Assembly: GCA_034003725.1 (NCBI GenBank)
Contig: JAVEYB010000008.1
Span: 1 to 64,000, forward strand
Length of the DNA: 64,000 nt
Source: Candidatus Zixiibacteriota bacterium
GTDB lineage: Bacteria; Zixibacteria; MSB-5A5; GN15; FEB-12
Direction of reading: 5' to 3'
A program made the position numbers and the translations under genes. Below are positions 4,146-47,168 of the stretch, one piece after another; positions within the stretch are counted from its first letter, which is position 1; each line of letters opens with the position of its first letter. The notes beneath the pieces are model-generated. The model was not told the DNA's origin. It worked only from the letters and a program-made list of their open reading frames with translations, and did no database searches.

Positions 4146-4727
4146 TCACCGCTGCCCGTAATCCAGACGCCCCTTTTGCATAATCTCAAGATTGCGTACC
4201 GCCGAGACAAACTTCTCTTCTGCGGCAAACCGAAGTGCCCGCTCGGAAATGACCAACTCGAAGATAATCAGCTCCGTACCACCATCGATATAGGCAATCA
4301 TCACGTTCGGCAAGAAACGTTCGGGTGAGTTGATGTAGAACGTTCGAGCATATTCTCCGCTGTAGCTCGAAATCGAGTCCACTTCGTTCATGATGACATC
4401 CGGACCGTAATGTTTGCGAAGACTGGCCGTGTCCGATGCAATCACGTCGTCGACATCAAGCTCGCGGATCTTGTATATGTTGATCCCGATCAGGATGTCG
4501 GTGCTGTCGTAGCGGGCGGCGTCCGGAATAAACGCGAATGAGTACCCGTCGTTGACCGCTTCCCGGCCGATCATCCTGAAGTGAGGTGGCGGGTTGAATA
4601 CGTAGTTCAACGACTCGCCTTCGTAAAACGCGGCATTCGAGTCCACCGGATTATCGACCGTGGGCGTGGCGACCACGCCGGGCGCGAACAACGCGCCCAC
4701 CAGGAGCACATAGAGCAGTGGTTTCAT
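4146..4727 (-). CDS. Exported protein of unknown function
   Basis: A 193-residue protein I do not recognise. The N-terminus (MKPLLYVLLVGALFAPGVVA) is a good Sec signal peptide with likely cleavage around residue 20, so the product should be periplasmic or surface-located. The mature part is a mixed alpha/beta sequence with no Cys, no lipobox and no beta-barrel pattern. It is transcribed divergently from the HMG-CoA synthase operon and has its own downstream hairpin. The frame, signal peptide and terminator support a real gene. Confidence 0.75.
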   Translation of the reverse strand: MKPLLYVLLVGALFAPGVVATPTVDNPVDSNAAFYEGESLNYVFNPPPHFRMIGREAVNDGYSFAFIPDAARYDSTDILIGINIYKIRELDVDDVIASDTASLRKHYGPDVIMNEVDSISSYSGEYARTFYINSPERFLPNVMIAYIDGGTELIIFELVISERALRFAAEEKFVSAVRNLEIMQKGRLDYGQR

Positions 4728-4837
4728 ATGTTACTGTTATCGGCAGGAGCCAGGCGCCCGTTAACCTCGTTCGGGGAGCCGTCTCGCCAGTTCTAAGCCG
4801 CCACGCCCCTTACGGTTCCGGGGAGAAGCTTTCCCGC

Positions 4838-10078: not shown

Positions 10079-10097
10079 CCCACCGCGGAGGGGTGGG
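10079..10097. repeat. GC-rich palindrome, variant copy
   Basis: CCCACCGC-GGA-GGGGTGGG, one mismatch from the perfect CCCACCCC-GGA-GGGGTGGG palindromes at 34141 and 34202. In all three cases GGGC(G/T)ACTCG follows. Confidence 0.65.
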
Positions 10098-10161
10098 CTA
10101 CTCGGCTGATCCGGTCCGTGGCGTACATCTTCGTGCGCTACGCCGCAACCCCTTTTTGAAT

Positions 10162-10190
10162 TTGATTCGCACCCCCGGAGTACGTATCCT
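10162..10190 (+). promoter_or_regulatory. Putative housekeeping promoter
   Basis: TTGATT, 17 bp, TATCCT, ending 20 nt before the ATG of the small membrane protein. Confidence 0.5.
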
Positions 10191-10210
10191 GCCTATACAC
10201 GAGGAAAACC

Positions 10211-10474
10211 ATGCTAATCACCCTTGGATACATTCTGGTCGGCTTTGCCATAACCTTCGTCCTCACGAGAGCCGTCGGATCGATCGTGCGACGGTTCGTC
10301 CGCGATGAGTCTTCGCCGGTCTGGACGTTCGCCGTCACCGTCATTCTGCTGTTCGTGTTTGCGTACTTCACGGTCCGATTCCGCCTCGGTATCGCGCTGT
10401 TTGCGCCCGGGCTGATCGTCTGGCTGCTGTACGACCTGAAAAAGCGACCGCGCAAAAACGCCCATATCCGATAG
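10211..10474 (+). CDS. Small two-helix membrane protein, unknown
   Basis: 87 residues. Two to three hydrophobic segments (about residues 3-21, 39-55 and 60-75) with a basic loop between them (RRFVRDE) and a positively charged tail (KKRPRKNAHIR). This predicts an inner-membrane protein with cytoplasmic termini. GAGGAAAACC precedes the ATG and a plausible promoter lies upstream, so expression is likely despite the repeat surroundings. No family recognised. Confidence 0.65.
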   Translation: MLITLGYILVGFAITFVLTRAVGSIVRRFVRDESSPVWTFAVTVILLFVFAYFTVRFRLGIALFAPGLIVWLLYDLKKRPRKNAHIR

Positions 10475-10568
10475 TACTATCCCGGTAACAGGTCCGATCT
10501 ACCGATTTGCGATCCACGCGGGCGATTGCAGGGTCCGTCGGAGGGCAGGGTCAAAGTTGCTGTTGCAG

Positions 10569-10744
10569 GGGGGCGCGGCGCACGGGGACGTACGCCACGC
10601 ACGGGACTCGAAGGGGGCGCAGTGCATGGGGACGTACGCCACGCACGGGACTCGAAGGGGGCGCGGCGCACGGGGACGTACGCCACGCACGGGACTCGAC
10701 GGGGGCGCGGCGCACGGGGACGTACGCCACGCACGGGACTCGGT
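10569..10744. repeat. 44-bp tandem repeat, four units
   Basis: Units at 10569, 10613, 10657 and 10701, each 44 bp, with the core GGGGACGTACGCC-ACGCAC. Units 1 and 3 are nearly identical; unit 2 has three to four changes and unit 4 diverges at its end. There is no spacer, so this is not CRISPR. The array fills most of the gap between two convergent genes. Two more units with the same 44-bp offset lie at 34.27 kb. Confidence 0.85.
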
Positions 10745-33956: not shown

Positions 33957-34140
33957 GAGCCGGGCGGAGTACGACCGCGGGGCACGGTTGCGCCGGGCAC
34001 CGGTCGGTCGATGTTCGGCTGGCGGGGAGCGGATGAGGCGTCGTGCAGAGGGCGCCTTGTTTTCGGGGCACGGATCACCTCCCTGGGCTCAGTTCCCAAT
34101 CTAACCTGTTAGCTATGTCGCCGGTTTGTACCCGGATCAA

Positions 34141-34220
34141 CCCACCCCGGAGGGGTGGGCGACTCGATCAGGAGGCACACTCTACGGCAACAGCTCTACA
34201 ACCCACCCCGGAGGGGTGGG
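34141..34220. repeat. Two perfect palindromes, CCCACCCC-GGA-GGGGTGGG
   Basis: Copies at 34141-34159 and 34202-34220, each preceded by A and followed by CGACTCG. A variant copy lies at 10079-10097. Confidence 0.75.
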
Positions 34221-34265
34221 CGACTCGGTGGTGGGACGAGAGAGACGAAAGGTTGCGCGGTGTAT

Positions 34266-34322
34266 GGGGACGTACGCCGCGCACGAGCGCGGGGGGTGGC
34301 GCGGCGCACGGGGACGTACGCC
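34266..34322. repeat. 44-bp repeat family, second locus
   Basis: The core GGGGACGTACGCC occurs at 34266 and 34310, exactly 44 bp apart, the same period as the four-unit array at 10569-10744. Flanks are more degraded here. Confidence 0.75.
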
Positions 34323-34377
34323 ACGCACAAATAGGACAGGACTTGTCGCCACGCACAAAAGCGGGGGTGGCGCGGTT

Positions 34378-34472: not shown

Positions 34473-35765
34473 ATGAAGACGACGGCCGACAGTCGCCATA
34501 TAATAGAGCAGCTTGAAGATCGGCTGGCGGCGCAAAAGGCGCAGCTTCGCGATCTCGCCATGATGGGCACGGTCATCACATCGATCCACGAGACGGATGC
34601 GGTGCTGTCGGTGGTGATGGATATGGCACTGCGGCTGGTCGACGGCGAGGTGGGGCTTGTCATGACGGACGAGACGGGCTCGCTCAGGCAGAAGGTGGCG
34701 TGGGGGGTGGGGGAGCAGTTCCTGAAGACACTGATGTACCGTGACGAGCTTGATTTGCCGACGTGGGTATTCACGCGCCGCGAGGCGGTGGTGCTGTCGG
34801 ATCTGGATCTCGTGTCTGAAGAGGGGATGCGGCTGGAGTCGCTGATAGCGCTGCCGATCAAGACGAGCGGCAAATGTCTGGGCGTCATGGCGATCGTCAA
34901 CAAGTCGTTCGGCGGGAATTTCGATGAGAACGACCGCGAGGCGCTGGAGATGCTGCTGAATTTCGTGGCGGTTGCGCTCGACAATTCGCTGCTGATCAAA
35001 GAGCAGCTCAAGCAGCAGCGGCGCGAGCAGGAGATGGCGATAGCGCGGCAGGTACAGGAGACGATTCTTCCACACGGATCGTGGAAGATCCCGGGAATGG
35101 AGATAGGGGCGGTATATTTTCCGGCGCGGGAGGTCGGGGGGGACTTCTACGACATCATCCCGATCGACGATTCGCGGTTTATCGCGGTAATCGGCGACGT
35201 TTCCAACAAGGGAGTACCGGCAGCGCTGGTGATGTCGGCTTGTTCGGGAATCATAAATACCATTATCGACGGTCATCCCGACATCACCGTCTCGGCCCTG
35301 GCGGCGAAGCTGAATGACATTCTCGCAACCGTCGTGATCGGCGAGCGGGAGATGTTCGTCACGCTGTTTTTCTGCCGGTTTGATCTCGAAGCCCAGAGGC
35401 TGACCTACTGCAACGCGGGTCATCTTCCGGGGCTGTACTGGGATAATGCGGAGACAGCGATATGCGAGCTGTCCGAAGGGGGGCCGATAGTCGGTCAGTT
35501 TGAGGGGATATCGTTCAAGGAGGGGAGCCGGCCGTTAGGTTCGGGCGACCGGTTGTTTTTGTTCACCGACGGTTTGACCGAAGCCGAGGATTCTTCGGGC
35601 AACCTGTTTGGACGCGAGCGTGCCGAACAGGTGTTTTCGGCTGAGATCGGTCTGCCGCCTCACGAGTTCTGCCTTCGGGTAAAGGAGTGGGTCGACCGCT
35701 ATCAGGAGGGGACCGGTGAGGAGACACACGACGATTTTACGATTCTTCAGTTGAAGGTGGAGTGA
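34473..35765 (+). CDS. GAF-domain SpoIIE/RsbU-type serine phosphatase
   Basis: About 430 residues. A short N-terminal coiled coil, a GAF domain (about 25-165), and a PP2C-type SpoIIE phosphatase domain (about 195-425) with VGGDFYD, GDVSNKGVPAAL and FLFTDGLTEAED providing metal-binding Asp residues. It should dephosphorylate the STAS protein encoded two genes downstream. The start is ambiguous: the ATG used has no clear ribosome site and the frame is open to 34377. The next gene begins immediately after. Confidence 0.88.
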   Translation: MKTTADSRHIIEQLEDRLAAQKAQLRDLAMMGTVITSIHETDAVLSVVMDMALRLVDGEVGLVMTDETGSLRQKVAWGVGEQFLKTLMYRDELDLPTWVFTRREAVVLSDLDLVSEEGMRLESLIALPIKTSGKCLGVMAIVNKSFGGNFDENDREALEMLLNFVAVALDNSLLIKEQLKQQRREQEMAIARQVQETILPHGSWKIPGMEIGAVYFPAREVGGDFYDIIPIDDSRFIAVIGDVSNKGVPAALVMSACSGIINTIIDGHPDITVSALAAKLNDILATVVIGEREMFVTLFFCRFDLEAQRLTYCNAGHLPGLYWDNAETAICELSEGGPIVGQFEGISFKEGSRPLGSGDRLFLFTDGLTEAEDSSGNLFGRERAEQVFSAEIGLPPHEFCLRVKEWVDRYQEGTGEETHDDFTILQLKVE

Positions 35766-35767
35766 CG

Positions 35768-36193
35768 ATGGCGAGGTATGCGTTTACCTATGCCTCCGTG
35801 CCCGAATCGGAAGGCAGGATGATGGATGAGCTGACGTCGGCCGTGGAGGGCGAGGGGCTGTCGGCGGGTCTTCGGCAGGCGGTCCTGGTGGCGGTTTCCG
35901 AGGCGTTCACGAACGCGTTGACGCACGGCAACCGGTACGATCCGCTCAAGCGAATCTGGATCGAATTGTCAGTGAATGATTCGCAGGTCATAGCCGATAT
36001 AAAGGATCAGGGTCGCGGAGGGCTGGCGGGCATCGACCGCCAGCAGCCTCCGGATCAGCTGTCGGAGAGTGGACGCGGGATGGGCCTGATTCGGCACTAT
36101 TCGGACCGTGTCGAACTGATGGAAACATCCTCGGGGGGGCTCCACGTGCATATCGAGTTTGACCGGAAGAACGAGAAAGTGATATCGACATAA
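35768..36193 (+). CDS. RsbW-like anti-sigma/serine kinase (HATPase fold)
   Basis: 141 residues with the GHKL ATP-binding fold: SEAFTNALTHGN (N-box), IKDQGRGG (G1 box) and GRGMGLIRHYSDRVE (G2 box). In partner-switching systems this kinase phosphorylates the STAS antagonist and sequesters a sigma factor or other target. An in-frame GTG lies six bases upstream, overlapping the previous stop. No sigma factor gene is adjacent, so the target is unknown. Confidence 0.88.
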   Translation: MARYAFTYASVPESEGRMMDELTSAVEGEGLSAGLRQAVLVAVSEAFTNALTHGNRYDPLKRIWIELSVNDSQVIADIKDQGRGGLAGIDRQQPPDQLSESGRGMGLIRHYSDRVELMETSSGGLHVHIEFDRKNEKVIST

Positions 36194-36211
36194 ATCCGTC
36201 TGGAGGAAAGC

Positions 36212-36565
36212 ATGGATATCTCGGCGCACGAACAGAACGGCATCGTCGTCCTGAATCTCAACGGCAGGCTGGATTTGGCCAGCGGCACGCAGTTGAAGCA
36301 GGAGATCAAGCGGTACCTGGACCGCAACGTGACATCGATTCACCTGACGCTCGCCAAGGTGGAGTTTATCAACAGCTCCGGGCTGGGATCGCTGGTGTCA
36401 ATCATGAAGGAGATCAGGCTGTTGAAGGGTCGGTTCACGATGTCGGATCTTGCCAGCTATGTCCGGGAGATATTCGAGATTACGCAGTTGTCGCATATTT
36501 TCGAGATTTATGCGACGGAGGGAGAGGCGCTGGCCTCGTATCAGCCGTCGGTAACCCCCTCCTGA
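36212..36565 (+). CDS. STAS-domain anti-sigma factor antagonist (RsbV-like)
   Basis: 117 residues. The phosphorylatable serine lies in FINSSGLGSLVS (Ser55/Ser56). LDLASGTQLKQEI and a C-terminal IFEIYATEGEAL fit SpoIIAA/RsbV proteins. TGGAGGAAAGC precedes the ATG. With the kinase and phosphatase it completes a three-gene partner-switching module at the head of the chemotaxis genes. Confidence 0.9.
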   Translation: MDISAHEQNGIVVLNLNGRLDLASGTQLKQEIKRYLDRNVTSIHLTLAKVEFINSSGLGSLVSIMKEIRLLKGRFTMSDLASYVREIFEITQLSHIFEIYATEGEALASYQPSVTPS

Positions 36566-36598
36566 TATGAGCGCACCCGCAACCGGAGGGGTACATCG

Positions 36599-38506
36599 AT
36601 GAGTACAGTCATAGACCGGATCGGGGAGCTGCTGTCGCAATTGCAGTCGCCCGATTACTTCGAGCGCGAAGAAGCCGTCAAGGAGCTGGGGACCTATACC
36701 GAGGATGAGGCGGTCGCCGGGCTGGTGATCGCGATGGAAGACCCTGATCTCGGTATTCGCGAGCTGGCGGCGGATTTTCTGTCGCGGCTTAACGGCGCGA
36801 CGGCCGTACAGCTTCTCATCAGGTTTTTAGGTCACGACGATATCGGCACCCGCAACCTCGCGTCGGAGATTCTCGTGAAGATCGGTGAGGACGCGGTGCT
36901 GCCGCTGATCGATCATCTCACGGCGGACGATCACGACGTTCGCAAGTTCATCTGCGATATCCTCGGTCTGATCGGCGACGAGCGGGCGGTGGAGGCGTTG
37001 TGTGAGCGGTTGTGGGACGACAACGGGAACGTGGTCTGTTCGGCAGCCGAGGCGCTGGGCGAGATCGGTTCGCCGCGGGCCGTCAGGCACCTGCTGGCGG
37101 TGTACGAGAAGATCGAGGACGTTCGCCTGCAGGCGGTCGAGGCGCTCGGCAAGATCGGCGATCAGTCGGCGCTGGAGTCGTTGTATACCTGCATGCGTTC
37201 ATCCGATCCGATGATTACGTACGCGGCGGTGGAAGCGATCGGCGCGATCGGCGCGATGGATTCGGTTGAGCAGCTTATGCCCATGTTGAACAACGCCGAC
37301 CGACTCATTGCGGAAGCGACGATGATGGCGATAATCCGGATCAGCGAACGGCACAACGGGCGGATGGAGGTCGATCTGCCGCTCAACGAGTTTCAGCAGT
37401 TCCTGTTCGACGGGATACGCAACCGCAACGAGGATGTCACGCGATTTACACTGGGTCGCCTGACGCACTGGTACGGCAGCGACGTTATCAAGGGTCTGCT
37501 TGACGTGGTAGACTACGTGGACGAAGAGACGCTGACGGAGGTGACGACGATTCTCGGACAGGTCGGGCCGAGTGCGGCGCGATTCATGACCGAGAAGCTG
37601 AAAACGGCCTCGACGGGCCTGAAGCTGAAGCTGCTGGACGTGATCAAGCAGTTCGCGGACGAAAATCTGGCGGTGGAATTGATGCCGCTGGCGAGCGATC
37701 CCGACCCGGAGGTACGACAGCGGGTGGCGCACGTGCTGGGGATATCCGGCCATACCGAGGCCGTGACGACACTTGCGCGGCTGACCAGTGATCCGATCGG
37801 TCATGTCCGTTCCGCGGCGTACTCCGCTCTCGGATGGTTATGCACGGAGTCGCAGGCGGACCTTTTGTTTGCGGGACTTGACGATCGGTATCCCGACGTA
37901 CGCGATTCCGCGATGGGCGCGTTGATCGTGATCGGGGGCCGGTCGGTGGTGAAGCGTTTTACGCGTGATTTGAACCACGACGATCCGGAACGGCAGCGAC
38001 TGGCGGTGACGGCGCTGGGCTGGATAGGCGAGGCGGACGTCGTGGAGCCGCTGTTGTCGGCGATCAACAATGCGGATCCGGCGATCCGGCGTTCGGCGCT
38101 CAATTCGCTGACGCGGATCGGCGACGTGGAGAATATCGGACCGATCGTGACGGCGTTGTCGGACGAGAATTCCGCCGTACGCAAGGCGGCGGTGACGGCG
38201 CTTCTGACGCTTCGCGGCGAGGAGGCGATCAACGACGTACGCCTGCTGCTCGAAGACGAGGACGTGTGGGTGAAGTATCACGTGATCAGCACGATCGGAG
38301 AGCTGGGGACGCGTCGGCTGGGCGAGTACGTGATGCCGTACCTGGACGACGACCAGGACATTATACGGATCGCCGCCGCCAAGGCGCTGGCGCAGCTGGG
38401 CAACCGGTCGGCGCTGCCGGCGCTGGAGCGTTTGCGGGACGAGCGGAATCCGGATCTCGCCGCCGCGGCGCAGATGGCGGTCGATCAGCTGGGAGGCCGT
38501 ACATGA
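36599..38506 (+). CDS. HEAT-repeat scaffold protein
   Basis: 635 residues made almost entirely of about 30-residue HEAT/PBS-lyase-type repeats (for example EALGEIGSPRAVRHLLAVYE, AVEALGKIGDQSALESLY, ALGWIGEADVVEPLLSAI). No catalytic residues or signal peptide. Such solenoids bind proteins. Its position between a partner-switching trio and a response regulator, with ATGA coupling to the latter, suggests a scaffold in this signalling pathway. No direct homologue with known function recognised. Confidence 0.85.
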   Translation: MSTVIDRIGELLSQLQSPDYFEREEAVKELGTYTEDEAVAGLVIAMEDPDLGIRELAADFLSRLNGATAVQLLIRFLGHDDIGTRNLASEILVKIGEDAVLPLIDHLTADDHDVRKFICDILGLIGDERAVEALCERLWDDNGNVVCSAAEALGEIGSPRAVRHLLAVYEKIEDVRLQAVEALGKIGDQSALESLYTCMRSSDPMITYAAVEAIGAIGAMDSVEQLMPMLNNADRLIAEATMMAIIRISERHNGRMEVDLPLNEFQQFLFDGIRNRNEDVTRFTLGRLTHWYGSDVIKGLLDVVDYVDEETLTEVTTILGQVGPSAARFMTEKLKTASTGLKLKLLDVIKQFADENLAVELMPLASDPDPEVRQRVAHVLGISGHTEAVTTLARLTSDPIGHVRSAAYSALGWLCTESQADLLFAGLDDRYPDVRDSAMGALIVIGGRSVVKRFTRDLNHDDPERQRLAVTALGWIGEADVVEPLLSAINNADPAIRRSALNSLTRIGDVENIGPIVTALSDENSAVRKAAVTALLTLRGEEAINDVRLLLEDEDVWVKYHVISTIGELGTRRLGEYVMPYLDDDQDIIRIAAAKALAQLGNRSALPALERLRDERNPDLAAAAQMAVDQLGGRT

Positions 38507-38877
38507 GCCGGCCGTCAATCATGGTCGTCGATGACGAGTTGCTGATTCGCGACCTGTTATACGACTTTTTCACTGGCCAGGGCTGGGAGATCACGGTGGC
38601 CGAGAGCGGCGCGAAAGCGCTGGAGATGCTCCGGCAGAAGCCGGCAGACCTGGTCCTGAGCGATATTAAGATGCCGCAGATGGACGGTCTGCAGCTGGCA
38701 GGTGAACTTCGGCGCGCCTATCCCGGTATGCCGGTCGTGTTGATGACCGGGTATCCGTCGGTGGACTCGGCGGTATCGGCGCTTCGCGCGCGGGTGGAGG
38801 ATTATGTCATCAAGCCGTTCAATATCAATCAGCTGTTCAAGCTGATCGAAGCGACCGTCCACAAAGACGGCCGGTAG
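38503..38877 (+). CDS. Single-domain response regulator
   Basis: 124 residues, receiver domain only: VVDDE acidic pocket, phospho-acceptor Asp54 in LSDIKMPQMDG, LMTGYPS, and Lys in VIKPF. It lacks an output domain, so it must act by protein contact. Coupled to the HEAT-repeat gene by a four-base overlap. The sequence is more NtrC-receiver-like (KMPQMDG) than CheY-like. Confidence 0.9.
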   Translation: MSRPSIMVVDDELLIRDLLYDFFTGQGWEITVAESGAKALEMLRQKPADLVLSDIKMPQMDGLQLAGELRRAYPGMPVVLMTGYPSVDSAVSALRARVEDYVIKPFNINQLFKLIEATVHKDGR

Positions 38878-38915: not shown

Positions 38916-39902
38916 ATGATTACCGGTCAGACGCCAGACCTTCAGATGACGCCGGAAGAATTCACGATGATTCGTGATTTCATTCACGAGCGCAGCGGCA
39001 TCTTCTTCGCAGAGAACAAGATGTATCTCGTGAAGAACCGTCTGCAGAAGCGGATGGAGCAACTCGACATCAAATCCGTGCGCGACTATTTCTATCACGT
39101 CAAGTACGACCTGTCGCTCAAGGAATTCAATATTTTGATGGACCTGGTCACGACCAACGAGACCAGTTTCTATCGCAACGAGCCGCAGTTGCTGTCGTTT
39201 TCGGAGGAAGCACTGCCGCTGATCGTGAAGGACAAGACGGCGGAGGGGAGTCGTTCGATTCGGATCTGGTCGGCCGGGTGTTCGTCGGGCGAGGAGCCGT
39301 ACACGCTGGCGATCATGATCAAGGAGAAGCCGCTTCTGGCGGGCTGGAATGTCGAGATTTTCGCATCGGACATTTCCGAGGAGATTCTGCAGAAGGCGCG
39401 TCACGGGGAGTACCAGGGGCTGACGCTACGGAACGTGCCGTCATATCTTCTGGCGAAGCACTTCACGAAATCGGGGGAGAGCTACCGGGTCAATCCGGAG
39501 GTGAAGGCGCTGGTGAAGTATTCGCAGTTGAACCTGAATGACCAGCGCAAGGTGTCGTTCATGAACAACATGGACGCGATATTTTGTCGGAACGTGATGA
39601 TTTACTTTTCCGACGAGGTGAAAAAGCAGCTCGTGCGGGGCTTTTTCAACAACCTTCGTCCGGGCGGTTACCTGTATATCGGGCATTCCGAGACGCTGCA
39701 CGGCATATCGAAAGCGTTCAAGCTGGTGTATTTCAAGAACGCGCTAGTGTACCAGAAAGAGGCGTCCGAATCGGCCGCGACCAAATCTGGCGCGGTATCA
39801 ACGGCGCGCACGGCGGCGGCGCCTCGGGGCGAGGGGGGCGGCGCGAGCCGGGCGCTGGACCTGTTGAGCAAGATCAAGCAGCCGGCGGCCGCGGGAAAAT
39901 GA
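38916..39902 (+). CDS. cheR: Chemoreceptor methyltransferase CheR
   Basis: 328 residues. N-terminal helical domain, then the S-adenosylmethionine-binding motif WSAGCSSGEEPYTLA, and FCRNVMIYFSDE typical of CheR. It methylates glutamates of chemoreceptors for adaptation. The last 55 residues are an Ala/Ser/Gly-rich disordered tail. No receptor or cheW gene is in the window. The tail-to-next-gene gap is 31 nt. Confidence 0.93.
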   Translation: MITGQTPDLQMTPEEFTMIRDFIHERSGIFFAENKMYLVKNRLQKRMEQLDIKSVRDYFYHVKYDLSLKEFNILMDLVTTNETSFYRNEPQLLSFSEEALPLIVKDKTAEGSRSIRIWSAGCSSGEEPYTLAIMIKEKPLLAGWNVEIFASDISEEILQKARHGEYQGLTLRNVPSYLLAKHFTKSGESYRVNPEVKALVKYSQLNLNDQRKVSFMNNMDAIFCRNVMIYFSDEVKKQLVRGFFNNLRPGGYLYIGHSETLHGISKAFKLVYFKNALVYQKEASESAATKSGAVSTARTAAAPRGEGGGASRALDLLSKIKQPAAAGK

Positions 39903-39933: not shown

Positions 39934-40305
39934 ATGAGTCAGACAATTCTCGTCGTCGATGATTCTCCGACTGTCGTGAAGTTCGTGAGTTTCTCCCTGA
40001 AGAGCGGCGGTTACAACGTGGTGACCGCCTGCGACGGCATGGACGCAATCGAGAAGCTGTCGAACCTGGCGGAGAGCGTAGATCTCGTGATAACCGACCT
40101 GAATATGCCGAACCTCGACGGGTACGGGCTGATCGAGACTCTTCGGAGCAACGATCAGCACCGCGAGACGCCGATCATCATATTGTCTTCGGAAGAGGGC
40201 GAAGCGGATCGGCAGCGGGGCATCGAGGTGGGCGCGACTTCGTATCTGGTGAAGCCGTTCAAGTCGCAGTTGCTGTTGTCCGAGGTTTCGAAGTACCTGA
40301 AGTGA
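39934..40305 (+). CDS. CheY-like response regulator
   Basis: 123 residues, single receiver domain with VVDDSPT, Asp55 in ITDLNMPNLDG, Ser-Ser at the switch position (IILSSEEG) and Lys in LVKPF. More divergent from classical CheY than the next gene, so it may act as a phosphate sink or address another target. Confidence 0.9.
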   Translation: MSQTILVVDDSPTVVKFVSFSLKSGGYNVVTACDGMDAIEKLSNLAESVDLVITDLNMPNLDGYGLIETLRSNDQHRETPIIILSSEEGEADRQRGIEVGATSYLVKPFKSQLLLSEVSKYLK

Positions 40306-40336: not shown

Positions 40337-40711
40337 GTGGCGGACCTCAAGATACTTGCGGTTGATGACAGCCCTACCATGCGGCGCATCATAATCAACA
40401 CGCTCAAGCGTGCCGGGTTTCAGAACGTGGTCGAGGCCAACGACGGCAAGGATGCGCTGGCCAAGATGAAGGTCGAGCCGGTGAATTTCGTGATCACCGA
40501 CTGGAACATGCCGGAGATGGACGGACTGACGTTCGTGACGACGCTGCGGTCGATGGAAGAATACAAGAACCTTCCCATTCTGATGGTGACGACCCGTTCG
40601 GTCAAGGACGACATACTGGAAGCCATGAAGGCGGGGGTCAACAATTATATCGTCAAACCGTTCACGCCGGACACACTCAAAGAGAAAATTGAGTCCATCC
40701 TGGCAGGATAA
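40337..40711 (+). CDS. cheY: Chemotaxis response regulator CheY
   Basis: 124 residues from a GTG behind AAGGAGGAAGC. The classical CheY signature VITDWNMPEMDG carries phospho-acceptor Asp55; AVDDSPTMRR, MVTTRS and YIVKPFTP complete the active site. Phosphorylated CheY binds the flagellar switch. The phosphatase gene cheZ follows after 27 nt. Confidence 0.94.
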   Translation: MADLKILAVDDSPTMRRIIINTLKRAGFQNVVEANDGKDALAKMKVEPVNFVITDWNMPEMDGLTFVTTLRSMEEYKNLPILMVTTRSVKDDILEAMKAGVNNYIVKPFTPDTLKEKIESILAG

Positions 40712-40738: not shown

Positions 40739-41347
40739 ATGTCCGGCCCAGAAACGCTTCAGGCCAAGATACAGCGCGAGATCAGCGAGCTATCCGAAGC
40801 CGTCATCAAGGTAGTCGACAGTTTCCGGCAGGTGAAAAACCCGCTGGTCGAGTCGCAGGAAAAGGTGCCGATGGCCACGGACCAACTCGACAAGATCAGC
40901 GAGCAGACCGAGGCGGCGGCGCACCAGATGCTCGACAGGGTGGAGCGTATCACCCAGCGCGAGGAGGAGATCATCGCGGGTCTCGGCGAGATCCGCAAGG
41001 GGGTCGACGGGGGGAGCCACGAACAGGTAGTCGGGGTGATCGACGCCATCCGGAGCAAGGCGGAAACGAATTTGAACGACGCATACATGATCATGGACGC
41101 CCTGCAGTTTCAGGATATCACGGCCCAGCAGATGAACCACGCGGCATCGCTGCTGGAAGATATCGAGGAGAAGCTCAAGCGGATAGTCGCGGCGCTCAAC
41201 GGTCAGGGTGCAGAGATCGGCGACGACCAGGGCGACGTCAGAGAGAAGCGGCTGCGGGTGTTCGATCCCCACGCCGATTTTGCGGACAAACGGACCGAGC
41301 AGGAAGATATCGATTCACTGTTCGAGCGTGAGAAGAAACGGCGCTGA
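40739..41347 (+). CDS. cheZ: CheY-P phosphatase CheZ
   Basis: 202 residues, predominantly helical. The catalytic stretch ALQFQDITAQQM places Asp126 and Gln130 at the positions that act in CheZ. A disordered linker and an acidic C-terminal helix (QEDIDSLFEREKK) resemble the CheY-tethering peptide. CheZ outside Proteobacteria is less common but known. Follows cheY directly behind AGGAGG. Confidence 0.88.
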   Translation: MSGPETLQAKIQREISELSEAVIKVVDSFRQVKNPLVESQEKVPMATDQLDKISEQTEAAAHQMLDRVERITQREEEIIAGLGEIRKGVDGGSHEQVVGVIDAIRSKAETNLNDAYMIMDALQFQDITAQQMNHAASLLEDIEEKLKRIVAALNGQGAEIGDDQGDVREKRLRVFDPHADFADKRTEQEDIDSLFEREKKRR

Positions 41348-41365: not shown

Positions 41366-43135
41366 ATGAGCAGCGATATGGATATCGGTCTCGACGACAT
41401 GAAGGAGATAATCGACGAGTTTATGGTCGAGGCGGACGAACTGATCAATTCGCTGGATACCAATCTCGTGACACTGGAGACGTCGCCGCACGACCTGGAT
41501 CTGCTCAACGAGATATTCCGCGCCGCCCACACGATCAAGGGAACGTCGAGCTTTCTCGGATTCGACCAGGTGTCAAGCCTGACGCACAGGATGGAAGACG
41601 TTCTCAACAAGCTGCGCAAGTCCGAGATGGTAGTGACGGCGGAAATCATGGACCTGCTGCTGGCGTCGGTGGACATTCTGAAGCAGCTGCTGGGCAACGT
41701 GCGAGAAGGCAACGGCGAGACGATCGATCTGACCGAGATAACACAGCGTCTGGAAGCTGCGATCGGCGGGCAGGCGGCATCGAAGGCCGCGCCGACGGCG
41801 GTCCGGACCGCGGAGGTTGCGCCGGTCGCGCCGGTAATAGAGCACACGGAATCGTACTCCGAGCCCGAGGTTGTCAGTGAGGCGTCCGCGAGCGAGCCGG
41901 GCACGTCACCGGCGCGCAGGGTTGGTCACGAGCGCAAGGCGACCGGCGACCAGACGATTCGGGTGGATGTCAACCGGCTCGATTCGCTGATGAACCTCAT
42001 GGGCGAACTGGTGCTGGGCCGGAATTCGCTGATGCAGACGGTAAGCAAGCTTGGCCCGGAGGCCGGGGTTGAAGATTTCGAGCGTGTTAACCAGTCGGCG
42101 GCGGCGGTGAACTATATCACCACGGAACTGCAGTTGGCCGTCATGAAGATGCGCATGCAGCCGGTGGGAAAGGTCTTCAGCCGGTTTCCGCGGCAGGTTC
42201 GGGACCTGTCCCGCGACGCGGGCAAGCAGATCGAACTGATCATGTCCGGAGAGGACACCGAACTGGACAAGTCCGTGATCGAGGAGATTGGTGACCCGCT
42301 GGTGCACCTGATCCGGAATTCGTGCGATCACGGGATCGAGCCGCCCGAGGAGCGTGTCGCCGCCGGCAAGCCGGCGAAGGGCACGGTCTGGCTCAGCGCG
42401 AGTCAGGAAGGCTCCAATATCGTGATCAAGATCCGTGACGACGGTCGCGGGCTGGATGTTGATGCGATCCGCACGAAGGCGGTCGAGCGCGGTCTCGCCG
42501 GTCGCGCGGAGGTGGACAGGATGGCCGACCGGGAGGTGTTCTCTTACATCTTCGAGGCGGGTTTCTCCACGGCGAAGAAGATAACGGATGTGTCCGGACG
42601 GGGGGTCGGGATGGACGTCGTTCGGACCAATATCGAGAAGCTCAACGGCATGATCGAGCTGGAGTCGGCGCGGGGTGAAGGGACGACGATTTCGATCAAG
42701 CTGCCGCTCACCCTGGCGATTATCCAGGGGCTTCTGGTTGAATCCGACGGCGAGGTATACATACTGCCGCTCTCGTCGGTGCACGAGACGGTCAAAACGG
42801 ACCACGCGCAGATTTACTATGTCAACCAGCGGCCGGTATTCCGGCTGCGCGACGAAATCATTCCGGTGGTCAATATGGGCGGCATCCTTCGGACGCAGGC
42901 ATCGGGTTTCACCCTGACCGAAAAGCCGTATATCGTGGTGGTCGGCCTGGCCGAGAAGAAGCTCGGTATCAATATCGATCGCTTCCTCGGTCAGGAAGAG
43001 GTGGTGATCAAGTCGCTCGGAGACTATTTGGGCGGGGCCGAGGGAATCGCGGGGGCGACGATCCTCGGTGACGGACGCATTCGGCTGATTGTCGATCTGA
43101 TCGGGCTGTTCAATCTGGCCCGGAAAGTCAACTGA
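41366..43135 (+). CDS. cheA: Chemotaxis histidine kinase CheA
   Basis: 589 residues: P1 HPt domain with phosphorylated His55 in AAHTIKGTSSFLGF; an Ala/Pro-rich linker (about 125-190) where a CheY-binding P2 domain is absent or very small; P3 dimerisation; P4 ATPase with HLIRNSCDHGIE, IRDDGRGLD and GRGVGMDVV; and a CheW-like P5 domain. It phosphorylates CheY and CheB. cheB follows after 20 nt. Confidence 0.96.
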   Translation: MSSDMDIGLDDMKEIIDEFMVEADELINSLDTNLVTLETSPHDLDLLNEIFRAAHTIKGTSSFLGFDQVSSLTHRMEDVLNKLRKSEMVVTAEIMDLLLASVDILKQLLGNVREGNGETIDLTEITQRLEAAIGGQAASKAAPTAVRTAEVAPVAPVIEHTESYSEPEVVSEASASEPGTSPARRVGHERKATGDQTIRVDVNRLDSLMNLMGELVLGRNSLMQTVSKLGPEAGVEDFERVNQSAAAVNYITTELQLAVMKMRMQPVGKVFSRFPRQVRDLSRDAGKQIELIMSGEDTELDKSVIEEIGDPLVHLIRNSCDHGIEPPEERVAAGKPAKGTVWLSASQEGSNIVIKIRDDGRGLDVDAIRTKAVERGLAGRAEVDRMADREVFSYIFEAGFSTAKKITDVSGRGVGMDVVRTNIEKLNGMIELESARGEGTTISIKLPLTLAIIQGLLVESDGEVYILPLSSVHETVKTDHAQIYYVNQRPVFRLRDEIIPVVNMGGILRTQASGFTLTEKPYIVVVGLAEKKLGINIDRFLGQEEVVIKSLGDYLGGAEGIAGATILGDGRIRLIVDLIGLFNLARKVN

Positions 43136-43155: not shown

Positions 43156-44286
43156 GTGAGCATCGACAAACCGATCGAAACCATCCGCATACTGGTCGTG
43201 GACGATTCCGCGTTCATGCGCAAAGCGATCAGCATGATGCTGGAGTCCGACCCGGCGTTGAAGGTGGTCGGCACGGCACGTGACGGGGAAGAGGGGGTGG
43301 AGAAGGTCCGCCTGCTCAAGCCCGATCTGGTAACGATGGATATCGAGATGCCGCGCATGGACGGGCTGGCGGCGCTTCGCGAAATCATGCTCAAGTGTCC
43401 CACGCCGGTGATGATGATCTCGTCGATTACAACCGAGGGGGCCGAGGCGACGCTGGAGGCGCTGGAGCTCGGAGCGGTTGACTTCATCCCCAAGCAAAGT
43501 TCGTATGTCAGTCTGGATATCGTCAAGATTCGGGACGATCTTCTGACGAAGATCAAGGACATCGTCAAACGGAAGCACCGCCTGATGGCGATGTACCGCC
43601 AGCGCCAGTTTTCGCGGCTGGCATCATCGACCGCCGCCCCGGTTGCAGCGCCCCCGGCGACGCGCAGTTATACGCATGTGTCGATCGACAGGCCCCGGGT
43701 GGTCGGCAAGCGGCAGCATCCGATCGATATAATTGCGATCGGTTCATCGACCGGCGGGCCGCCGGCGCTGCAGAAGGTGATTCCGGCCCTGCCGGGGAAT
43801 CTGCCGGTAGGGGTTGTGATTGCACAGCACATGCCGCCGATGTTCACGAAGTCTCTTGCGGACCGATTGAACGGTTTGTCCAAGGTGAGCGTTCGCGAGG
43901 CGGTCGACGGTGAGACACTGGAGCCGGCGACCGTGTTGATTGCGCCGGGCGGTCAGCACCTGACAGTGAAAAAGCGCGGGACGAAGGCCCTGATTCGGGT
44001 GTCTCCGGAGCCGAAGGAGACACTGTATCATCCGTGTGTCGACGTGCTTTTCAATTCCGTGGCCGACGAATTCGCACGTGCGACGATGGGTGTGATGCTC
44101 ACCGGCATGGGTTCAAACGGGCTGGTCGGCGCGCGCAATCTGAAGGAACGAGGCGGCGTCCTGATAGCGCAGAACGAGGAATCGTGCGTGGTGTACGGGA
44201 TGCCGCGGGCGGTAATCGAAGCCAACCTTGCCGATCACATCACCTCGATTGATACGGTGTCCGACGAGCTGCTAAGCTATTTTTAG
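43156..44286 (+). CDS. cheB: Chemotaxis methylesterase CheB
   Basis: 376 residues from a GTG. The receiver domain has Asp62 in TMDIEMPRMDGL. The methylesterase/deamidase domain has the catalytic serine in IGSSTGGPPAL (Ser197-Ser198), a conserved His in AQHMPP and Asp in LTGMGSNG. It removes receptor methyl groups; with CheR it sets adaptation. Ends the che gene run. Confidence 0.95.
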   Translation: MSIDKPIETIRILVVDDSAFMRKAISMMLESDPALKVVGTARDGEEGVEKVRLLKPDLVTMDIEMPRMDGLAALREIMLKCPTPVMMISSITTEGAEATLEALELGAVDFIPKQSSYVSLDIVKIRDDLLTKIKDIVKRKHRLMAMYRQRQFSRLASSTAAPVAAPPATRSYTHVSIDRPRVVGKRQHPIDIIAIGSSTGGPPALQKVIPALPGNLPVGVVIAQHMPPMFTKSLADRLNGLSKVSVREAVDGETLEPATVLIAPGGQHLTVKKRGTKALIRVSPEPKETLYHPCVDVLFNSVADEFARATMGVMLTGMGSNGLVGARNLKERGGVLIAQNEESCVVYGMPRAVIEANLADHITSIDTVSDELLSYF

Positions 44287-44325
44287 CTAAAGTTTTTGTT
44301 GAATCCGCGGGCGCTCGCGCCCACC

Positions 44326-45711
44326 ATGCACTCAGCCAACTGGATGAGGAAGTACATGGAAGAGCGCTACAGCCCGGCTGCATTTCCTGCCATGGAGGGC
44401 GACGAGATCAGCCGTTTCACCGAGTCCTACGCATCGTTCAGTCGTGTCGTTAACTCATTGCAGCGTCAATACATAACCCTGAAGGACGAGTTCGCCGCAC
44501 AGAACCGTCTGCTCGCCGAGACCAACGGGAAGTTGCTGGATGCGACACAGCGCAATCTGAAGGCGACGTCGTTTCTTCACAACATCCTTGATGCAATCAC
44601 GGCGGGAGTGGTGGCGGTCGATATGGACGGCCGGGTGACGCATTTCAATCCGGCGGCGGAGCGGCTGCTTGGCCTGAGCGCCCGTGATGTGGTTGGCCGG
44701 CAGTACCGCGAGCTGTTGCCACCGGGCCAGCCGAGCGATGCCAATGCATTGCGGGCGGCCGAATCCGGGAAGGCGGTGTCCGGAATCGACAAGGTGTGGC
44801 AGTCGGCCGACGGGGGACGACTGATGGTATCGGTATCGACGGCGATCCTGCATGACGACGACGATCGGCCCACCGGGGCGATCGAAGTCTTTCATGACCT
44901 GACGAAGATGAAGCAGATGGAACAGGAGCTGGCGCGGTTGAACACGCTGGCGGCGCTGGGGGAGATGGCGGCGACGATCGCGCATGAGGTTCGGAATCCG
45001 CTGACGGGGATCAGCGGTTTCGCGGCATTTTTGAAGCGGGATCTGGCGCCGGACGATCCGCGCCAGAAGCTGGTGGCGAAGATATCGCGGGGGGTGGAAT
45101 CGCTCAACCAGACGGTGACATCGCTTCTGAATTACACGCGATTCGACGAGGTCAACAGCGAGCCGGTCGATTTCGGGACGTTTGTCCGCCGCACGGTGGA
45201 GCAGTTTCGCTACGATCAGCCGGAGCTGGCGCGGGGGGTGAAATTTGACATTCGCTCGCAGGTCGCCGACGACGGAGCCGCCGTGCTGGTGACGTGCGAC
45301 CCGATGCTCCTGCGGCAGATGATGTTCAACCTGTTCACGAACGCCATAGAGGCGCACGACGACAAGCCGGTCATCACGATCCGATTCCGGAAGCTGCCAC
45401 GCACGACAGCGGCGCGTGATTACGGCGGCCGGCTGATACTGGCGCAGGACCAGACGGCGGTAGAGGTCACGGTTGCGGACAACGGCCCGGGGGTGCCCGA
45501 GGGACAGCGGGAGAAGCTGTTTGCGCCGTTTTTCACGACCAAGCCGGGCGGCAACGGCCTGGGCCTGGCGATGGCCTGGAAGATCATGAAAGCACACGGT
45601 GGTGACATATTTGCAGATAACGGCGCGTCGGGCGGCGCGGTGTTCACCTTATTGCTGCCTGTACGGATCGAAACACCCTCGGCGACGCCGACCTGGTCTC
45701 ACGAAGCATAG
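44326..45711 (+). CDS. PAS-domain sensor histidine kinase
   Basis: About 461 residues. N-terminal coiled coil, a PAS domain (about 95-205), HisKA with the phosphorylated His in IAHEVRNPLTGISGF, and HATPase with MFNLFTNAIEAHD, DNGPGVPEG and GNGLGLAM. No membrane segment, so it senses a cytoplasmic cue. It sits 12 nt upstream of a sigma-54 activator, like FlgS/FlrB kinases of flagellar cascades. A TTG start at 44296 is possible. Confidence 0.92.
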   Translation: MHSANWMRKYMEERYSPAAFPAMEGDEISRFTESYASFSRVVNSLQRQYITLKDEFAAQNRLLAETNGKLLDATQRNLKATSFLHNILDAITAGVVAVDMDGRVTHFNPAAERLLGLSARDVVGRQYRELLPPGQPSDANALRAAESGKAVSGIDKVWQSADGGRLMVSVSTAILHDDDDRPTGAIEVFHDLTKMKQMEQELARLNTLAALGEMAATIAHEVRNPLTGISGFAAFLKRDLAPDDPRQKLVAKISRGVESLNQTVTSLLNYTRFDEVNSEPVDFGTFVRRTVEQFRYDQPELARGVKFDIRSQVADDGAAVLVTCDPMLLRQMMFNLFTNAIEAHDDKPVITIRFRKLPRTTAARDYGGRLILAQDQTAVEVTVADNGPGVPEGQREKLFAPFFTTKPGGNGLGLAMAWKIMKAHGGDIFADNGASGGAVFTLLLPVRIETPSATPTWSHEA

Positions 45712-45723
45712 GGAGTGTTGCGG

Positions 45724-47094
45724 ATGACGTATTCGGTTCTGGTAGTCGACGACGACAGCCTGGTCAACGAGTTTCTCGTGGAGACGATCCAGCGGGCGGG
45801 GTACGCCTGCCGGTCGGTGTTGTCCGGTGAAGAGGCACTCGATGCGATCAGGGAACAGCCGTATGATATCGTCCTGACGGATCTGAAGATGAAGCAGATG
45901 GACGGCATCACGCTATTAGAGCACATTCGTCAGCACACGCCGGAGGCAGTGGTGGTGATGATGACCGCGTACGGGTCGGTGGAGACGGCGGTGGACGCGA
46001 TCAAGAAGGGCGCGCACGACTTTCTGCTGAAGCCGGTCCTGCCGGATACGCTGGAACACATTCTTCAGCGAATCACCGAGATGCTCAATTTGAAGGCGGA
46101 GAACGCGGTCCTGAAGCGTGACCTGGCGTATCGATTCCAGAACATTATCGGTAAGTCCGGGGCGATGAAGGAGATATTCGACCGCATCCAGACGATCGCC
46201 GACGCGCGGGCAACGGTGTTGATTACGGGCGATTCCGGAACCGGCAAGGAGATGGTGGCCAGAGCGATACATTACACCTCCAACCGTCGGGAGATGCCGT
46301 TTATCCGATTGAACTGCGCCGTGCTGCCGGAGAATCTGGTGGAATCCGAGTTGTTCGGGTACGAGAAAGGCGCGTTTACGGATGCGAAGAAGACGACCCG
46401 TGGTCGGTTCGAGCTGGCGGACGGCGGCACGCTGTTGCTGGACGAGATTTCGGAGATGCCGCTCAATCTGCAGGCGAAGCTTTTGCGCGTAATCCAGGAG
46501 CGTGAGTTCGAGCGGGTGGGGTCGTCGCAGACGATCCAGGTGGACGTGCGGCTGGTAGCGACCTCGAACCGCAACCTGAAGGAAGAGATAGCGTCGGGCC
46601 GGTTCCGCGAGGACTTGTTCTACCGGCTGGATGTGGTGCCGATCCATATCCCGACGCTGGCAGAGCGGAAAGAGGACATTCCGCTTCTGGCGACTCACTT
46701 TGTCCAGAAAAGCAACGAGCAGAACGGGCGGTCGGTCAAGGGGATCGACGACAATGCGCTCAAGCTGCTGATGAAATACAACTGGCCGGGCAATGTCCGG
46801 CAGCTGGAGAACTATATCGAACGGGCGGTCATAACGTGCCGCGAGGACTATTTGACCGAAGACGATTTTCCGGCCAGTCTGGCGTACGGCGAGGCCGGAA
46901 ACGGCGCGGGGCTGCAGGTTCCGATGACGCTCGAGGACGGCAAGCGCTACCTGATTCTCAAGACGCTTGAGAAGTGTCAGGGGAACAAGACGCGGGCGGC
47001 GGAGATGCTGGGTATCACGACGCGAACGATACGCAATATTCTCAAGGATTTCGACGGCGAGCCGGCCGACATGGTCGAGTCCGGCACCAACTGA
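45724..47094 (+). CDS. Sigma-54-dependent response regulator (FlgR/FlrC-like)
   Basis: 456 residues. Receiver with Asp53 in LTDLKMKQMDG; AAA+ domain with Walker A GDSGTGKE (169-176), sigma-54-contacting loop GAFTDA (216-221, usually GAFTGA) and Walker B LLLDEI; Fis-type helix-turn-helix at the C-terminus (KTRAAEMLGITTRTIRNIL). Its position beside a kinase, motAB and two sigma-54 promoters for rod genes makes it the likely flagellar activator. That assignment is inference. Confidence 0.92.
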   Translation: MTYSVLVVDDDSLVNEFLVETIQRAGYACRSVLSGEEALDAIREQPYDIVLTDLKMKQMDGITLLEHIRQHTPEAVVVMMTAYGSVETAVDAIKKGAHDFLLKPVLPDTLEHILQRITEMLNLKAENAVLKRDLAYRFQNIIGKSGAMKEIFDRIQTIADARATVLITGDSGTGKEMVARAIHYTSNRREMPFIRLNCAVLPENLVESELFGYEKGAFTDAKKTTRGRFELADGGTLLLDEISEMPLNLQAKLLRVIQEREFERVGSSQTIQVDVRLVATSNRNLKEEIASGRFREDLFYRLDVVPIHIPTLAERKEDIPLLATHFVQKSNEQNGRSVKGIDDNALKLLMKYNWPGNVRQLENYIERAVITCREDYLTEDDFPASLAYGEAGNGAGLQVPMTLEDGKRYLILKTLEKCQGNKTRAAEMLGITTRTIRNILKDFDGEPADMVESGTN

Positions 47095-47141: not shown

Positions 47142-47168
47142 TACAGAAACCTTACATCATGCCGATAA
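47142..47168 (+). promoter_or_regulatory. Sigma-28 (FliA)-type promoter of motAB
   Basis: TACA, 15 bp, GCCGATAA, against the consensus TAAA-N15-GCCGATAA. It ends 66 nt before the motA ATG, in the 140-bp gap that separates motAB from the activator gene. Confidence 0.6.

Follow-up and report, generated by a model that had tools for sequence, protein, structure and literature searches.

What does a serine-kinase partner switch control when its genes stand at the head of a chemotaxis cluster, and what is the HEAT-repeat protein encoded among them doing there? These questions are raised by five genes in the 64,000-nucleotide stretch of DNA analysed here (the window; contig C8:1-64000), which belongs to a 3.7-Mb Zixibacteria (GN15) genome, 99.5% complete. 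Positions 34473-38877 encode a SpoIIE-type phosphatase with a GAF domain, an RsbW-like kinase and a STAS antagonist (hereafter the trio), followed by the HEAT protein, a receiver-only response regulator (RR) and then cheR. All five genes are intact, carried by one strand and tightly packed, overlapping by 4 bp at two junctions and separated elsewhere by no more than 33 nt. An earlier note on this DNA had listed them in this order, as coordinates and Pfam matches confirm (Table 1), and had proposed the HEAT protein as the hub of the switch, with an output to motility or the chemoreceptor arrays rather than sigma release. We computed the composition of the system, the integrity of its active sites, its gene order, the flagellar versus chemotaxis linkage of its parts and its promoter motif. 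The reading that we favour, with a probability of about 0.55, is a FliA-driven motility partner switch that acts on FliA or FlgM and lies beside a CheR-linked HEAT protein.

The trio and RR stay with flagellar genes, the HEAT protein with cheR

We searched 60 relatives, which makes 61 genomes with that of the window. One full-length orthologue of the HEAT protein each was present in 31 of them (37-81% identity), the nearest, at up to 81%, coming from Candidatus Zixiibacteriota and candidate division GN15. Its surroundings were taken for 30 genomes, with three loci ending at or near the HEAT gene. The order der-SpoIIE-RsbW-STAS-HEAT-RR was held in all 27 loci whose contig spans the trio, a conservation far beyond chance and the result that the check suggested in the earlier note had looked for. 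The other 30 genomes have no HEAT protein; FliG is present in 25 of these, and in 54 of the 61 overall. We inspected 12 of the HEAT-less, FliG-bearing genomes at the flagellar locus, and in every one der-SpoIIE-RsbW-STAS-RR lies directly upstream of PAS kinase-NtrC-motAB-fliL. These 12 loci also lack cheR-cheA-cheB; three retain one CheY-like gene, and one of the three a short CheA too. Since the trio and RR are kept without HEAT or cheR-cheA-cheB in all 12 flagellated relatives inspected, SpoIIE, RsbW, STAS and RR are best assigned to a flagellar layer, and the proposed tie of the system to motility holds. The same genomes reject the HEAT protein as a generic conserved neighbour of the trio.

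HEAT and CheR occurred together in 28 genomes, HEAT alone in 3, CheR alone in 0 and neither in 30 (Fisher p=2.6e-14); the corresponding counts were 20/1/0/18 in genomes at least 90% complete (p=3e-10) and, for HEAT against FliG, 29/2/25/5 (p=0.26), all p-values overstating independence because the genomes are related. The CheR counted was the flagellar type, recognised by a match at E<1e-60 or by occupying the same position, and a broken CheR fragment in G060 was excluded. The HEAT protein is thus best placed in the chemotaxis layer: within the order it tracks cheR, not flagella. The three genomes with HEAT and without CheR are G053, whose locus has no che genes, G047, which is 68% complete, and G026, where the contig ends.

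Chemotaxis genes vary in other ways among these relatives. Canonical cheA is absent from three nearly complete HEAT-bearing genomes (G011, G018 and G053). At the cheA position of G018 (L049:14127-15056) and G020 (L067:9371-10300, minus strand), both without canonical CheA, lies a CheA-like protein of 309 residues with Hpt and ATPase domains and without the dimerisation and CheW domains; it would represent either a chemotaxis system that is being reduced or a novel form of the kinase. In G027 (93% complete; L064:1-12500), the flagellar locus holds CheY and CheA, and neither CheR nor HEAT was found in the genome, which fits the HEAT-CheR link, though the contig ends there.

The partner switch looks enzymatically intact

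Alignments of 34-43 relatives showed that the metal-binding aspartates of SpoIIE (Asp 224/242/366/420/421), Glu47/Asn51/His55/Asp82/Gly84/Gly104/Gly106 of RsbW, Ser55-Ser56 of STAS and Asp10/Asp11/Asp54/Thr82/Lys104 of RR are invariant. Because all four proteins keep their catalytic residues, the switch looks enzymatically intact, and the locus has the make-up of an RsbU/RsbV/RsbW-type module: a PP2C phosphatase, a GHKL serine kinase and a STAS protein, with catalytic residues and acceptor serine in place. That the three proteins act together is directly evidenced by natural fusions: RsbW and STAS form a single open reading frame (ORF) in four loci (L053, L059, L070 and L073) and SpoIIE and RsbW in three loci of family f2 (L050-L052). 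In a predicted model of the natural RsbW-STAS fusion the domains fold, with a predicted template modelling score of 0.48, at which the domain arrangement is untrusted.

The window's genome encodes four strong RsbW-like kinases, including the one described here. The others lie at C3:199030, C8:100065 and C1:410300; the C8 ORF also carries a SpoIIE domain, and those on C3 and C1 are near other SpoIIE genes.

A FliA-type promoter precedes the operon

The sigma28 consensus is TAAA-N15-GCCGATAA. A bipartite match of this type stands just before the SpoIIE gene (Table 1). Among relatives, 29/43 loci have the -10 motif [CT]CGATA no more than 70 nt from the SpoIIE start, against a mean of 1.5 and a maximum of 6 in 500 shuffles; for the bipartite pattern the figures are 15/43 loci, a shuffled mean of 0.04 and a maximum of 1. 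The shuffles preserve base composition only, and some loci come from close relatives. The -10 motif also precedes motA, a classical sigma28 target, in 25 of 26 loci, an exact copy in the window serving as internal positive control, and is rare or absent upstream of most other genes within the operon. Matches in a scan for sigma-70 type promoters were not above chance.

Genome-wide, the bipartite pattern gave 29 sites in the window's own genome, against 9 for the reversed control. These sites (L185-L213) precede rpoN-, HDOD-, hemerythrin-, PilZ- and PilM-like genes and two receivers, all named by reading, and they make up a candidate FliA regulon. By eye, TAAG-N14-GCCGAAAA, a weaker match, can be seen some 205 nt upstream of the flagellin gene. 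Within the window, GCCGATA also occurs at 4738-4744 on the minus strand, about 10 nt upstream of the reverse ORF 4146-4727 (193 residues, secreted-like), which is a possible further FliA target.

At the sequence level, then, the operon carries a promoter for a candidate target sigma factor. The sigB operon of Bacillus likewise has a SigB-dependent promoter (PMC7522486); by the same logic, the FliA-type promoter here suggests that the switch probably sets FliA free.

FliA or FlgM as the likely target of the switch

No sigma factor gene lies in or near the operon, as the earlier note had said. FliA itself is encoded at C1:201310-201984, downstream of an FlhG-like gene, and it is the only sigma factor apart from the primary one to have region 3. 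The genome holds 15 further sigma factors, mostly ECF-sized (extracytoplasmic function), and none of the SigB/SigF type. A divergent FlgM, scoring 14.5 bits against Pfam, under the cut-off, and syntenic with better-scoring relatives, lies about 12 kb past the window (C8:76154-76504), between FlgN-like and HDOD genes. Its presence led us to reject RsbW as a stand-in for a missing FlgM. Since the FliA-type promoter is conserved, FliA is the sole alternative sigma factor with region 3 and FlgM is present, the output that these genes suggest most economically is sigma28 control, exerted by way of FliA or FlgM, and this weakens the earlier preference for an output other than sigma release.

A different target is unlikely in our view, though not negligible: the trio might control the primary or an ECF sigma factor, or an effector that is no sigma factor at all (a diguanylate cyclase, for example), with FliA providing flagellar co-expression only. 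Partner switches of both kinds are known, RsbW acting on the primary sigma factor in Chlamydia (PMC11619594) and HsbD being a non-sigma target (PMC5085249), the genome has 15 further sigma factors, and dispersed targets would be invisible to synteny. Against such a target, the strict linkage to the flagellar operon, in genomes with and without HEAT, and the FliA-type promoter favour a flagellar one. Several findings weigh nonetheless against control of FliA by a switch beside a CheR-linked HEAT protein. With FlgM present, RsbW is unneeded as an anti-sigma factor for FliA; the 15 further sigma factors and the primary one are also possible targets; four strong RsbW-like kinases in one genome make cross-talk possible; the loci with the strict bipartite pattern all belong to the window's family, the motif being weaker in other families; and HEAT is retained in G053, which has no che genes at the locus, and in G047 and G026, which have no cheR.

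HEAT relatives in other phyla adjoin cheR

Scanning the collection with the HEAT alignment gave 80 loci, of which 51 fall outside the trio-bearing group; these include metagenome-assembled genomes labelled Nitrospirae, Desulfuromonadales, Geobacteraceae, Deltaproteobacteria, Elusimicrobia, Calditrichaeota, Schekmanbacteria and Latescibacterota. These relatives are mostly 26-32% identical over nearly the full HEAT length. In 48 of the 49 non-Zixibacteria loci with flanking sequence, the first recognised gene downstream of HEAT is cheR, mostly less than 45 nt away or overlapping; in L159 it lies directly upstream instead, and in L170 an unassigned 124-residue ORF separates the two. The gene upstream of HEAT reads as CheW in the four non-Zixibacteria cases inspected, and the trio stands beside HEAT in none of the 51 loci. 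Because cheR comes next so consistently and the trio never adjoins, the HEAT protein is best described as a member of chemotaxis clusters, with CheR as its nearest companion in the genome.

The protein itself offers few further clues. The AlphaFold2 model is a plain all-alpha solenoid (mean predicted local distance difference test score, 92.6), for which a fold search returned generic solenoids only (SF3B1, the PP2A A subunit, karyopherins), with no functional clue. Residues 81-160 are the best-conserved stretch across all phyla. Longer HEAT proteins, searched for domain fusions that would name a partner, held HEAT repeats only, and no HEAT protein figures in the text of Tran 2008, on chemotaxis in Geobacter. 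In G047 (L056:8932-11541, minus strand), an 869-residue HEAT ORF opens in frame with a part resembling the ClpC N-domain, perhaps a chimera of the assembly. An RsbW-like ORF (36% identity) lies a few genes past HEAT-CheR-CheB in L134:1-11478, from a groundwater bacterium that is not in the trio-bearing group.

The two layers may be neighbours and nothing else: in Zixibacteria, a che block with HEAT would lie inside the flagellar regulatory operon and share its promoter, the layers never interacting. This is compatible with the FliA-directed switch that we favour, is a stronger statement, and seems to us to have close to an even chance. It agrees with the joint absence of HEAT and che genes from che-less relatives, in which the trio-RR-kinase-NtrC operon stays intact. 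It accounts less well for the position of HEAT in Zixibacteria, always between STAS and RR and not beside CheR, which there is the second gene downstream, after RR, whereas the two are directly adjacent in the other phyla; the 26 HEAT proteins from trio loci form one clade (support 96/96) that keeps this order.

The HEAT protein is not supported as the hub of the switch

In the hub model, STAS, the receiver or both would dock on the solenoid, and the switch would gate the chemoreceptor arrays or the motor, not a sigma factor. Wherever HEAT occurs in a trio-bearing locus, it stands between STAS and RR; G053 keeps HEAT and the trio without che genes at the locus; and the output-less receiver CheY7 of Myxococcus binds Cpc7, a HEAT protein of the Che7 cluster (PMC11514114). 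The 12 che-less relatives argue the other way, since the trio and RR persist there without HEAT, as does HEAT without the trio in other phyla.

Evolutionary rates, expressed relative to der/NtrC/MotA/DUF512, bear on the same point, in comparisons whose pairs are not independent: the loss of a hub would be expected to relax STAS or RR. CheY2, the positive control, changed strongly, from 0.47 with che genes to 1.58 without, so the test can respond. STAS evolved somewhat more slowly in HEAT-bearing genomes of the window's family (0.83 versus 1.16 without HEAT), but family f4, which has no HEAT, has a STAS that is as slow (0.76), and the effect on RR was small (0.88 versus 0.98). STAS thus appears strongly constrained with or without HEAT, and the rates give no support for the hub, which is not disproof. 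Taken together, these comparisons do not support HEAT as the hub of the switch, a model we regard as improbable. Scarcely more probable is a double role, in which HEAT would be an unrecognised component of chemosensory adaptation, retained beside CheR in several phyla, that in Zixibacteria is also wired into the FliA-controlled switch.

A working model

From these data we infer a target, an input and a partner for the HEAT protein. RsbW would phosphorylate STAS at Ser55/56, and SpoIIE would remove the phosphate, tuned by a ligand of its GAF domain and possibly by RR. Free STAS would then either capture RsbW, releasing FliA, or capture FlgM. Sigma28-dependent late flagellar and sensory genes would rise, this operon included, making the switch autoregulated. 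RR might be an input, as in HsbR of Pseudomonas, or might serve the neighbouring PAS kinase. The likeliest role for the HEAT solenoid is that of a scaffold for chemosensory adaptation, partnered by CheR, CheW or CheY.

Surrounding genes and other features of the window

Downstream of RR lie cheR, two CheY-like receivers, cheZ, cheA, cheB, genes for a PAS kinase and an NtrC-type activator, and motAB. For CheB, MotAB, the kinase and the activator, the names come from reading translations, without a Pfam scan.

Table 1 Features of the partner-switch and chemotaxis operon, in window coordinates
Feature	Position	Strand	Evidence
Sigma28 (FliA)-type promoter TCAA-N16-GCCGATA, ending 8 nt upstream of the SpoIIE start codon	34438-34464	+	Pattern match
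SpoIIE-type phosphatase with GAF (PP2C)	34473-35765	+	Pfam SpoIIE 3.1e-43, GAF 2.5e-11; metal Asp invariant in 34 relatives
RsbW/SpoIIAB-like serine kinase	35762-36193 (4-bp overlap with SpoIIE)	+	HATPase_c_2 9.3e-19; spIIAB 1.1e-10, under equivalog cut-off; SpoIIAB structures 8.5e-6; ATP-site residues invariant in 40
STAS antagonist, Ser55-Ser56 conserved	36212-36565 (18-nt gap after RsbW)	+	STAS 2.6e-19; TIGR00377 7.1e-20, over cut-off; INSSG invariant in 40
HEAT-repeat solenoid, 635 aa, CheR-linked family	36599-38506 (33-nt gap after STAS)	+	HEAT_2 1.8e-85; AlphaFold2 model
Receiver-only response regulator RR	38503-38877 (4-bp overlap with HEAT)	+	Response_reg 3e-29; Asp54 invariant in 43; kept in 12/12 che-less loci
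CheR methyltransferase	38916-39902	+	CheR 5.2e-59; co-occurs with HEAT
CheY-like receiver 1	39934-40305	+	Pfam scan
CheY	40337-40711	+	Domain and family-model scans
CheZ	40739-41347	+	PF04344 7.9e-10
CheA	41366-43135	+	Hpt, dimerisation, HATPase and CheW domains
CheB	43156-44286	+	Receiver plus methylesterase, read from translation; reference gene in locus comparisons
PAS histidine kinase, FlgS-like by position	44296-45711	+	Translation; synteny with NtrC and motAB in genomes with and without HEAT
NtrC-type sigma54 activator, FlgR-like by position	45715-47094	+	Translation; synteny
Exact sigma28 -10 GCCGATAA ahead of motA, taken as a positive control within the window	47161-47168	+	Pattern match

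Two dispersed intergenic repeats, each with a chance expectation of 0, occupy the regions 34138-34328 and 10079-10734. GGGGACGTACGCCRCGCAC recurs in 44-bp steps at 10584, 10628, 10672, 10716, 34266 and 34310, and CCCACCCCGGAGGGGTGGGCGAC at 10079, 34141 and 34202.

Implications

The main products of this work are the linkage of HEAT to CheR across phyla and the FliA-type promoter, which indicates a likely target of the switch. Government of sigma28 activity by a partner switch in a whole uncultured phylum becomes testable, and such a switch would be a further flagellar example beside that argued for in Pseudomonas. Chemotaxis clusters of several phyla carry a cheR-coupled HEAT protein whose role is undescribed in the literature searched and which can be studied in culturable relatives of Geobacter. 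If HEAT were wired into the switch, one STAS/receiver circuit would set both receptor adaptation and late flagellar expression.

Comparison with known systems

The phosphatase, serine kinase and STAS protein, with intact motifs, resemble SpoIIAA-SpoIIAB and RsbU-RsbV-RsbW of Bacillus, and the operon is apparently read by its proposed target sigma factor, as is sigB. Unlike the Bacillus switches, it contains no sigma factor gene, in a genome without a SigB/SigF-type sigma factor.

For the HEAT protein, a close parallel is found in the CheW-HEAT-CheR-CheB loci of Nitrospirota and Desulfuromonadales, where full-length relatives (26-32% identity) directly precede cheR; unlike in the window, no trio stands beside HEAT there and no receiver separates it from cheR. 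Compared by description, two further HEAT proteins have a chemosensory setting. Cpc7 is coded with the chemosensory genes of Myxococcus, although no partner switch is reported at its cluster (PMC11514114). OE2401F, a HEAT_PBS protein of the Halobacterium che region, is needed for taxis signalling and interacts with CheD and CheF (PMC2666748); unlike the window's protein it is archaeal and adjoins CheF rather than CheR.

The closest likeness of the switch as a whole is to HptB-HsbR-HsbA of P. aeruginosa and CrsR-CrsA of Shewanella, in which a receiver, a PP2C phosphatase, a HATPase kinase/anti-sigma and a STAS protein are encoded beside flagellar and chemotaxis genes and have a motility output (PMC5085249, PMC6482189). 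In Pseudomonas, FliA is freed when unphosphorylated HsbA captures FlgM, and RpoS is bound by the kinase domain of HsbR (PMC5085249, PMC6482189). As in these systems, receiver, PP2C, kinase and STAS are coded together with flagellar genes in the window. The window's locus differs in its GAF sensor and extra HEAT gene, and no HptB was seen at it. Because receiver, phosphatase and kinase are not one polypeptide, as they are in HsbR, we file the switch as working like HsbR/HsbA and not as a member of that class; the only fusion of this kind, SpoIIE-RsbW in family f2, echoes HsbR.

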